A DNA stretch of 64,000 bases, from positions 1 to 64,000 of the forward strand of contig CACJLY010000007.1 of NCBI GenBank assembly GCA_902594335.1, read 5' to 3'. Positions within the stretch are counted from its first letter, which is position 1; the number at the start of each line of letters is the position of its first letter. The stretch is from an uncultured Pelagibacteraceae bacterium (GTDB lineage Bacteria; Pseudomonadota; Alphaproteobacteria; Pelagibacterales; Pelagibacteraceae). A model generated the notes under the pieces. The model did no database searches and had not been told where the DNA came from. It saw nothing but the letters and a program-made list of their open reading frames with translations. This document shows, in pieces, positions 16,603 to 22,432 of this stretch. Made by a program: the position numbers and the translations under genes.

Positions 16603-16688
16603 TGGTGCCCTCGGCCAGACTCGAACTGGCACTCCATAAATGGCAAGGATTTTAAGTCCTTTGTGTCTACCAATTTCACCACGAGGGC
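16603..16688 (-). tRNA. tRNA-Leu(TAA), CCA encoded, intact
   Basis: GCCCTCGTGGTGAAATTGGTAGACACAAAGGACTTAAAATCCTTGCCATTTATGGAGTGCCAGTTCGAGTCTGGCCGAGGGCACCA. Confidence 0.95.
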
Positions 16689-16759
16689 ATTAATGAATTT
16701 CATGAGTATTTATGCCAATATTTATAATTGAACAAGATTAATAAGTAAAATTTTTTTAT
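16650..16759 (-). repeat. 110-bp repeat copy 1: 5' half of tRNA-Leu plus promoter
   Basis: About 95% identical, ungapped, to 22323-22432; first 41 bp identical also to 24929-24969. Confidence 0.95.
16707..16735 (-). promoter_or_regulatory. Predicted promoter of intact tRNA-Leu (TTGTTC-N17-TAAATA)
   Basis: Minus-strand -35 TTGTTC at 16730-16735, -10 TAAATA at 16707-16712, 18 nt upstream of tRNA 5' end; same promoter preserved in copy 2. Confidence 0.6.
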
Positions 16760-16791
16760 TTTATCTGTCTATGTACAAGTCTTGTACAAGT
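16757..16791. repeat. 35-bp direct repeat DR-L with two 11-bp-phased ACAAGT motifs
   Basis: TATTTTATCTGTCTATGTACAAGTCTTGTACAAGT; matches 22161-22195 with few mismatches. Confidence 0.85.
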
Positions 16792-16817
16792 TCTCCTGTA
16801 TAATCCTATAAAATATA

Positions 16818-19800
16818 TCAATAACCTTCTGGATTTACTGTAACTGTTAAACCACTAGCTGCCTCTGCTTCAGCAACAGCTTTTTTATGATCTGCACAAC
16901 CAGCTGCGTTTCCCGAACTACAAGCACTTCCTTGATTTGCTGCTGCATCGGTTAGACCTGAATAAACAACAGTTTGTCCTGGTCCGACGTTAACCCCAGT
17001 ACGACCGACTATAACAGCTATTGAGCCATCAGAATTTTGAACAAGTTGTACAACATTTTTTTCTGCTCTTACTCCCTCAATTACCTCATGTGCTGCTGCC
17101 TGAACAACTTGAGTAACTTCTTGAGCTACTTCTTGGGCAGCTTCTTGGGCAGCGCTTGCAGCTTCTGTTGCTGCCTCTGATGCAGCTGAAGCAACTTCTG
17201 TTGTTGAAGATGCGGCTGCCTTAGCCGCATTAACTGCATCAACAACACTCTGCTCTGCTGTAACTTGATTTTTTGCAGCTGCAAGAACATTTTCATCTAT
17301 TTGTTGACCTGAAGCTTTTGCAGTTTCTAATCTTGAAACTGCATCTTTTGCTTTTTGCAGTAACGCCTCTGCACCACCTTCTTCCATGATACTAAATTTT
17401 CCACTAAAAAATTCTTTTGTAACCTCACCTGCTGCCTCACCTATTGCACTGTCTAAGACTAATCCTTTAGTATTTACTGTGGCTGCAGCTAACGCATCAT
17501 CAAAACCAAATGGAGATTCAACTCCATCAGCAATTTGTTGATTAAAAGTCTCTAATTCTGATTTAGAAATATTAAATGCACAATCTCCTCCTGAGCACAT
17601 TCCACCTTGATTAATATCTCCAGTTCTAACAAAAACATATCCAGAGGCTGCAACCTTTTTACCTAAATCTCCACTAGGTCCACATTGATCACCACTACAA
17701 ATAATTCCTCCATACAAAGCATTTCCTGTATGACTATCTAATACTTGTCTTCCAGTTTTTGGATCAATGAGTGAATAAGTTCCTTCAGCCATATCATTTG
17801 TAGCAACAAGACCTTTTGCTGTTTCAAGACCAAACATACCTGAATTAATTTTTTCAGCAGCTATTTCGGATAACTGTATGTTTAAATCTCCTGTAGCATC
17901 AATTTTACCAACGCTTAAAATTTGTTCTCTTGTCACTGCTCCAGCTAGATAAACTTGGTTACCTCTTGTAAATGTACCTACAGGAGCTTCAAAATCACCA
18001 ACATCATCAGTTAAAGTGTTAGTATCAACTATTCTCATTAACTCAGTTCCTTCAATTTGAACGATTGATTTATTTTCTAATTTGGCAACAGCTTCAACAA
18101 TTTTTTCATTTACATTAATTCCTGATTTAATTGCTTGTGTCATTGCAAGATCAGCTTTGATTTCAATGACATTGGTTAACTCTTGATTAAGTTTAGATAT
18201 TTGATTTGAAATGTCTGGTGTTTCAGTTTCAAGAGTAGTTAATTCAGTTGTAAGAGATGCTAATTGACTATTAATTTCTGTTGATTGTTTTTCATAATCT
18301 TTCAATTGACTATCTAATTGAGCTATTTGACTTTCAAATTGAGCTTTTAATGTATTAGCTTCATCAGTTGCTTTACCCTGACTTTCAATTTGATTTGCAA
18401 TAGTAGTTAATTGAGTATTAAGTTTAGTATCCAGGTCTGCTCTTTGACCTTCTAGCTCACTCATTTTATCACTTAAAGGATTTAATTGTTCTTGAAGTGA
18501 AGCTAAGTTTTCAGTTTTTTCAGCTATCAAACTTTCTTTAGAACTAAATTGGTTTGATAAATCACTGATTTGATTTTGAATTTCACTTTCTGATGATTTT
18601 AATGAAGCAAGTTCACTCTCTAAATTATTTATATCATCATTAATAGTTAATGATTGAGACTTTGTTTGTTCAAGATCTTCAGATAATTTTGCTATTTTTT
18701 CATTTAAAGCATCTAATTTTGGATTAGTTGTTTTAAGCACAATGGATAATTGATTTTCAGCTAACTCTAAATCACTTTGACTTAGGTTTAATGGATCATA
18801 GTGATTATAAATTGCATAATCATCTATCCAACTATATTTTTTTGATTTTAATATTGCTGCAGCTTTTACATTTGACATTTCCCAATATGGACCGGTCATA
18901 AACTCAGAAACAGGTTTGTCTCCTATGTCAGCCATTGCAGTTCTTAATGCCTCTAAAGCTTGTACTTCAGTTGTACCATCAACAATGTCATATAATTTAG
19001 CTCTCATCATTGCAGGATCTAAATCTGCAACTAATTCTGCATTACCCTCAAAAGTAGGAACCTTATTTAAAACATCTGCAACTTTTTGGCTTATTTCCCT
19101 TAAAGGCTTTGTCTCTTCTGAAACTATAGCGTCATACTTAACACGTGCTTCCTCTACAGATTTAACCAAATTTTCTCTCGCTTGATCTGATACGCTATTT
19201 TTTATAGAAGAAATTTCATACTCTGTATTTCTTATCTCTTTTTCTATATCACTTTTTTCTAAATTAATTACTTGATCCTTGTTAAGACTTTGCGGAATTC
19301 GAGTATTCCAAATTTGCATGTTAATACTTAAACGTCTATCCCAGTTTTCTCTTTTGTACGCTTGGTTAGATGGTAAATTTCTTAATCTATTGTATTCTTT
19401 TTTTAAATTTTCTAGATTTTGTACAACGTTATTTCTATTATCGTTGTATTGATTAAACAATTGATCTGCGTTAACGTCAACTTGCTCAAGTGAGGATGTT
19501 AACTGATTAATTTTTTCTTGTTGTAATTTCAAATCTTGATTTCCCTCCAAAATTTTATCTATTTCCTTTACAACTAAATCTGTTTCAGCCACATTTGATT
19601 GTAGGCTAGAATATTGTATCCAAGTTGTATTTAGCCCTCTTAATTGCTCTATATCTTTGGTTTTTTCACTGATAGATTTTTGAACTTGATCTTTAGCGTT
19701 TTGTAACTCTAGTGATATTAAAGACGCTTCTTGAATAGCTTTTTCTTCAGCAATAATTACATTAATTTCTGCATTACTTGGAACACTGACATTCCATTCG

Positions 19801-22160: not shown

Positions 22161-22195
22161 TATTTTATCTCTTCATGTACAAGTTTTGTACAAGT
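22161..22195. repeat. 35-bp direct repeat DR-R with phased ACAAGT motifs
   Basis: TATTTTATCTCTTCATGTACAAGTTTTGTACAAGT; a third ACAAGT follows at 22200-22205. Confidence 0.85.
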
Positions 22196-22230
22196 CTACA
22201 CAAGTTAGTTAAGTCTTATTTTTAAATATC

Positions 22231-22302
22231 AATTTAAAGCAAAATAAAAATTATGTGATTTTATAGGATGTTTTAGACTACGTTAGACTACCACGGACTG
22301 AC
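22231..22302. repeat. Conserved element outer end (copy A) with 10-bp tandem motif
   Basis: AATTTAAAGC..ATTTTATAGGATG then TTTTAGACTA/CGTTAGACTA/CCACGGACTG; homologous to 24838-24909. Confidence 0.85.
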
Positions 22303-22322
22303 TCGTCTGTGAATCCCTTGGC

Positions 22323-22432
22323 TTTTAAGTCCTTTGTGTCTACCAATTTCACCACGAGGGCATGAGTTATTTTCATGAGTATTTATGCTAATATTTATAA
22401 TTGAACAAGTTTAATAAGTAAAATTTTTTTAT
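22323..22432 (-). repeat. 110-bp repeat copy 2: truncated tRNA-Leu 5' half plus promoter
   Basis: 41-bp exact tRNA-Leu 5' half at 22323-22363; promoter TTGTTC-N17-TAAATA at 22380-22408. Confidence 0.95.

Follow-up and report, generated by a model that had tools for sequence, protein, structure and literature searches.

The window analysed here, a stretch of 64,000 nucleotides of DNA from an uncultured Pelagibacteraceae bacterium, harbours an intact tRNA-Leu(UAA) gene (16603-16688, found with ARAGORN), which is the attachment gene of the locus and the sole full-length match in this 84% complete genome. The gene lies on the minus strand, as do all features of the locus given below, and its 5' end points towards two consecutive cargo-bearing segments, here called cassettes A and B. 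Repeat comparison revealed three copies of a 41-bp core, consisting of the first 39 tRNA bases and two upstream bases, with 0 mismatches among them. Copy 1 (16650-16690) is the first half of the tRNA within the intact gene, and 46 bp at this copy are identical to the attP of pelagiphage HTVC105P. Copy 2 (22323-22363) marks the boundary of cassettes A and B, and copy 3 (24929-24969) closes cassette B at its far end. The first-pass annotation, made from the sequence alone, had aligned copies 1 and 2 without gaps over 110 bp with about 6 mismatches; this was borne out by a gap-free match of 113 bp at 94% identity (16647-16759 and 22320-22432), in which ~70 bp of upstream sequence match beyond the core. 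Copy 3 had been said to share only the 41 bp. This holds with respect to the upstream region of the copy 1 type, but copies 2 and 3 share a further 54-bp repeat (81%) at the opposite side of the core (22220-22273 and 24827-24880), corresponding to the right end that is conserved in each element.

Cassette A starts next to the tRNA with a block designated P1 (16691-16759), the upstream region and putative promoter of the tRNA (TTGTTC at 16730-16735, TAAATA at 16707-16712). It is followed by a left-end pair of iterons, the tag of this cassette (ACTTGTACAAGACTTGTACA, 16772-16791, located by 20-mer search), and outside these iterons by a ATAGGATTATACAGGA motif (16794-16809), recognised in the alignment of relatives, which stands in inverted orientation to the TCCTATAAAATC motif found at the right end. 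The cargo consists of a 1485-aa ORF (16818-21275), showing weak coiled-coil matches only (ATG16, tape-measure proteins), and a 293-aa ORF (21272-22153) without a Pfam or PHROG match. A right-end iteron pair (ACTTGTACAAAACTTGTACA, 22176-22195), matching the left-end pair, lies directly upstream of the first cargo gene, and the right-end att region (22220-22322) combines core-adjacent AGTC repeats with a TCCTATAAAATC block. This att region is kept in most partial copies of relatives.

Cassette B has its own P1 block (22364-22432), shared with copy 1, which would once have adjoined the tRNA and has since been displaced. It encodes a family 2 glycosyltransferase (22429-23514; PF00535, E=2.7e-32) and a radical SAM protein (23582-24808; PF04055, E=8.9e-11), and ends in a right-end att region (24827-24928) that carries the 54-bp repeat. 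Iterons were looked for at both ends of cassette B and none were detected; they have probably decayed. Beyond copy 3 lie the resident, pre-integration tRNA-Leu upstream region (24970-25084), with TTGTGT-N16-TATACA at 24983-25010, and a ComA-like gene (25085-25879; PF02679), the chromosomal flank that anchors the comparison with empty sites. None of the four cargo ORFs of the window segments encodes an integrase or tyrosine recombinase. Elsewhere the genome encodes a single PF00589 protein (333 aa). Just one such protein, of about 325 aa, is likewise encoded by most relatives, and it is probably the housekeeping Xer recombinase. The locus has a tRNA fragment at the boundary and a retained intact tRNA, as tRNA-integrated elements have, and no integrase within the element. 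With attL/attR ends kept, no integrase and a tandem order, the window cassettes agree with the description of CIMEs. An element-borne tyrosine recombinase at a tRNA, the hallmark of tycheposons, is not found in them and is present only in the rare satellites described below. What had been annotated as a single element is indeed a tRNA-targeting insertion, but one made up of two tandem integrase-less cassettes that belong to a genus-wide system.

Occupied and empty sites could be compared in two lineages. In the empty site of genome G214 the ComA-like gene, 97.7% identical to that of the window, is followed by ~120 bp of copy-3 upstream sequence and an intact tRNA-Leu. In the window the order is ComA, copy-3 upstream, 41 bp, two cassettes, P1 and the intact tRNA. 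The alignment of both runs to the last base of ...GGACTTAAAA, the end of the core, where the window departs into cassette B. The earlier proposal that copy 3 is the displaced start of the resident tRNA gene is borne out, since its upstream block lies on an intact tRNA in the empty site. The second lineage is marked by a 404-aa gene (gene X), which in G086, G078, G082, G108 and G097 directly precedes an upstream block of its own, with an intact tRNA behind it. In G118, gene X and the same block lead into a 41-bp fragment, after which come a cassette of 3.9 kb, P1 and the intact tRNA. These comparisons show that an incoming cassette exchanges the 5' half of the tRNA gene, together with its upstream region, for its own, in line with the earlier claim that the element supplies both; the cassettes behave as reversed-polarity elements, supplying the 5' part and upstream region of their target gene. 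The prediction that occupied sites carry the element-type flank and empty sites the copy-3 type held for P1 at occupied sites and for G214, but the gene-X lineages carry another resident upstream region. Copy 3 was for that reason rejected as the universal ancestral promoter, being the resident sequence in the ComA-linked lineage. An empty site with an upstream region of the copy 1 type was not recognised, and L047, the sole single-copy P1 site fully read, is a cassette remnant.

P1 is common to copy 2 and to most intact and partial copies of relatives, is absent at empty sites, and adjoins the tRNA in about 70 of 80 relatives. The two promoters listed in the first-pass annotation, TTGTTC-N17-TAAATA at copy 1 and TTGTGT-N16-TATACA at copy 3, are present in the sequence but are poor sigma-70 matches. 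A sigma-70 scan of 16600-16850 gave 0 matches, with a mean of 1.0 in shuffles. The P1 spacer is conserved as much as the hexamers, and displaced copies are conserved as much as tRNA-adjacent ones. In view of the poor sigma-70 score and a spacer conserved like the hexamers, P1 could be kept as an attachment arm. It might even be kept solely as such, with tRNA-Leu transcribed from elsewhere and its control unchanged by integration, and both the missing consensus and the even conservation of spacer and displaced copies would suit this explanation. We consider it unlikely, as the unlinked P1, copy-3, gene-X and satellite blocks each place an AT-rich upstream region directly on the tRNA. P1 probably also serves as the tRNA promoter. 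Integration would in that case control the expression of tRNA-Leu(UAA), and this essential, apparently single-copy gene would depend on an upstream region supplied by the latest mobile arrival.

Core matches were found in 119 of 151 genomes across the genus, and many of these loci consist of tandem cassettes with a spacing of 1-6 kb. The loci of 80 relatives were read in detail, yielding 58 intervals between successive cores. Since the same arrangement recurs in most of these 80 relatives, the repeat arrangement in the window is not a matter of chance. In its usual form a cassette is bounded by P1 on one side and by AGTC repeats plus a TCCTATAAAATC-like block on the other, and nearly all cargo genes are co-oriented with the tRNA. 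Pilin-like N_methyl proteins make up 15/122 of the cargo; other cargo includes restriction-modification proteins of types I, IIG and IV as well as MORN, autotransporter and protease domains.

Most cassettes carry at both ends a tag of the kind seen in cassette A, a direct-repeat pair with a 9-bp unit and an 11-bp period. The right-end pair is located 124-128 bp after the core and the left-end pair just past P1. The tag sequence varies widely among cassettes and agrees between the two ends of one cassette. A pair was present at both ends in 42 of 57 cassettes, and the tags of one cassette matched each other at a mean of 16.7 of 20 positions against 11.5 of 20 in other pairings, a mean reached by 0 of 20,000 permutations. 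The own partner was the best or tied match in 26 of these 42 cassettes, where about 2 were expected. Iteron pairs also occur in 50 of 70 P1 flanks of intact tRNAs compared to 3.2% of random 80-mers. In 399 Pelagibacter genomes the tag of the window (ACTTGTACAARACTTGTACA), taken as a 20-mer, has 5 occurrences, each of them at a cassette end, and its reversed-pattern control has 0. Four matches to the window tag turned up in viral contigs; none adjoins a core or a helper integrase, and they are thus regarded as coincidental. Searches of the viral contigs for the most common cassette tag, and for P1 as an exact degenerate pattern, both gave 0 matches.

Shared cassettes are 96-97% identical between genomes with host flanks of 81-87% identity (90.7% versus 75.5% in a second case) and sit at different array positions in different genomes. 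Both observations bear on the alternative that the cassettes are immobile debris, that is decayed islands and duplications, shuffled when tRNA fragments and P1 blocks recombine by homology. In its favour, decay is frequent among distal copies, cassette B of the window is without tags, and P1 copies are similar enough for homologous exchange. This explanation is nevertheless very unlikely in our view, because shared cassettes are closer to each other than their host flanks are and change position in the array, tags are recognisable at both ends in most cassettes, and the junction at the core is base-precise in the empty-site comparison. Excised circles of integrase-less cassettes were not found.

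Integrase-bearing satellites of 7.7-9 kb, which share the core and the type of tag with the cassettes, occur rarely. Genome G120 (single cell AG-414-K15) has an 8.8-kb element at the same core, which encodes a primase-like protein besides a 551-aa integrase and carries the left-end tag pair CCAGCACA and matching left arms. Related satellites are present in AG-909-L14 (tag CCAGTACC) and AG-903-K07 (tag CTAGAAAC). Three viral contigs of 7.8, 8.0 and 9.0 kb (L138, L147 and L150) are circular by terminal overlaps of 99, 123 and 99 bp, respectively, and have one core and one integrase each, with the tags CTAGGGTC, CTAGGATC and CTAGTAAT; they come from a viral contig collection, which does not prove packaging. 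L079, L138 and L147 combine the integrase with a primase-like protein of 766-781 aa, a gene content as in phage satellites. Close helper relatives are rare, with hits in 10 of 399 genomes and in 6 of 397, and a number of these are only partial or distant matches. A first search of the viral contigs with one integrase as query gave nothing, the helper integrase had no match in INPHARED, and no helper bearing the tag class of the window turned up. Of the six tag classes seen on helpers, four recur exactly on integrase-less cassettes, which is only modestly above chance (null mean 1.3, P about 0.02). The upstream block of the satellites differs from that of the cassettes, so the cassettes are not simply deleted satellites.

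Temperate pelagiphages of the HTVC105P type could be thought of as the mobilising agent instead of the satellites. HTVC105P and a related uncultured phage have the exact 46-bp core just 3' of their integrase gene. The flanks of the phage core are without the AGTC block and tag pairs, both of which the satellites have, and we see little likelihood that a pelagiphage rather than a satellite integrase moves the cassettes.

Arm domains and tags were compared among seven close helper integrases only. The integrases of L079 and L124 have different tags and are 94-96% identical in their middle and catalytic parts, with 36-66% identity over residues 1-145. L138 and L152 have the same tag and are 92-100% identical over residues 34-145. 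L147 is one tag base apart from L138, with 66-83% identity in the arm domain and 94-98% in the rest. L126 and L150 have similar tags and similar N-terminal parts (69-78%), with middle parts at 46%. The pairs L079/L124, L138/L152 and L138/L147 are 93-98% identical outside the arm domain. An arm domain that changes with the tag is the pattern expected if the arm domain reads the tag, and on this sequence comparison the integrase arm domain would do so. The N-domain of the helper integrase had no Pfam match. An AlphaFold2 model had a pLDDT of 52 overall and of about 80 over residues 30-140, and Foldseek with residues of about 30-140 retrieved 3jtz (TM 0.75), 3rmp (TM 0.72) and also 3ju0, with E-values of 0.02-0.06 and a probability of 1.00. 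The model thus predicts an arm-type binding domain like that of P4-like integrases. A more distant integrase (about 32% identity) is encoded by the IMG/VR contig L149 (1803 and 1944-3491), which has the same core and its own tag AGTTACCCA on both sides, and suggests that the tag principle extends beyond the close helpers.

The end repeats might also be read as a regulon tag, with a role as operators or promoter elements for the cargo, rather than as integrase arm sites. The right-end pair lies just upstream of the first cargo gene, followed by GAGATAAAATA, and nearly all cargo genes point away from it, which favours this alternative. The left-end pair, however, lies 3' of the cargo beside the tRNA and yet matches the right end. 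These tags are found on integrase satellites as well, where additional copies lie within the first part of the integrase gene, and tag changes track the integrase arm domain. A regulatory role in place of an arm-site role is accordingly rated as highly improbable.

The preferred reading, to which we assign a probability of about 75%, is that 16691-24969 consists of two integrase-less cassettes, acquired by serial site-specific insertion into the first half of tRNA-Leu(UAA), with tags that function as arm sites for an integrase acting in trans. The attachment site of a cassette consists of the P1 upstream block, the 41-bp tRNA first half and the AGTC/TCCTATAAAATC block, to which an intact cassette adds its own repeat pair at each end (seen in A, not detected in B). 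As the site comparisons show, insertion gives the tRNA the upstream block and 5' half of the cassette and pushes the old start away, first copy 3 and then copy 2; the newest cassette would adjoin the tRNA. The repeat pairs would most likely be arm-type sites for a tyrosine integrase that satellites at the same core provide in trans. Each tag would serve as an address, recognised only by integrases with an N-terminal arm-binding domain specific for it. The shared core, the tags and the signal of horizontal transfer, all at the sequence level, are consistent with mobilisation of the cassettes in trans. A more far-reaching picture, in which the system would amount to integron-like gene capture on tRNA-Leu with barcoded cassettes, matching hypervariable arm domains in the satellites, lock-and-key coevolution and a tRNA re-promotered at each insertion, is tentative, and we would not quite give it even odds.

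An integrative element that reverses the usual orientation of the target gene was, by its title, the subject of a report by Zhao and Williams in 2002, and that element is said to have its own integrase. The reversed polarity claimed in the first-pass annotation is confirmed at this locus, but has precedents in a SAR11 phage and in T7-like cyanophages, and 5' integration polarity itself is not new. T7-like pelagiphages and cyanophages integrate into the first half of tRNA-Leu (PMC8776855). HTVC105P and the T7-like cyanophages P-SSP7 and S-TIP37 resemble the window in the tRNA-Leu target, in an attP that equals the tRNA first half and in replacement of the upstream side. They differ in that they are complete phages, which encode an integrase themselves and have other arms, whereas the window has tandem integrase-less cargo cassettes. 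The ssrA islands of Dehalococcoides, as far as described in the part of the source consulted, are tandem, many without an integration module, and are thought to move with their neighbours (PMC3146451). These islands and CIMEs are like the window arrays in the accretion of tandem islands at one tRNA-like gene; they differ in the use of the ssrA 3' end and a serine recombinase, and the same part of that source describes no helper-matched tag per element (PMC3146451). In being small and located at a tRNA, and in encoding an integrase and a primase-like protein, the proposed helpers resemble the marine phage satellites known as VEIMEs, tycheposons and PICMIs (PMC11389934). The window cassettes, in contrast, have no integrase or replication gene, placing their dependence one level further down. 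Integron cassettes and CALINs follow a similar logic of co-oriented integrase-less cargo arrays at one site, moved in trans (PMC11389934), but the window attachment site is a tRNA core with arm-like repeats. In freshwater Methylopumilus an additive island is marked by recurring 20-bp tRNA-Lys repeats (PMC10872708). In the open-licence literature searched, no description was found of a tag code matched to helper arm domains, nor of a 5'-side tRNA swap by integrase-less cassettes, and a published one could have been missed.

SAR11 bacteria are among the most abundant bacteria of the ocean and have streamlined genomes. To our knowledge, the gain and loss of surface and defence genes among their strains is poorly understood. 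The locus offers a testable route for gene gain in SAR11, with restriction-modification, pilin-like, glycosyltransferase and other cassettes added to a single tRNA gene. Should the tags prove to be arm sites, they would furthermore provide a natural panel of integrase arm-domain/DNA-site pairs, down to a one-base difference (CTAGGGTC versus CTAGGATC).

Several minor observations were made at individual sites. The two bases before the tRNA start (24968-24969) are AT in copy 3 and GA in G214; GA was also found at the equivalent position of several other copy-3-type sites, pointing to a small conversion or substitution near the junction. In locus L086 (genome G085, cores at 16588 and 18285) the order is reversed, with P1 at the distal core and a copy-3-like block at the intact tRNA. 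The latter block holds a degenerate repeat pair (TAGACACCAGT/TATACACCGAT). Because this block adjoins the tRNA in G085 with P1 in distal position, the copy-3 block may itself be an old element end. Locus L067 (genome G077, cores at 1596 and 1329) has a 267-bp mini-cassette with attachment sequences and one tag pair only, as if recombination between two tag pairs had deleted the cargo. The viral contig L143 (IMGVR_UViG_3300025897_000973), whose genes include PhoH-like and further phage-type ones, terminates in the left end of a cassette (4423-5129), composed of a pair of the tag CCTGTACA, P1 and the tRNA core, followed by a new coding start, and may represent a cassette carried inside a phage genome.
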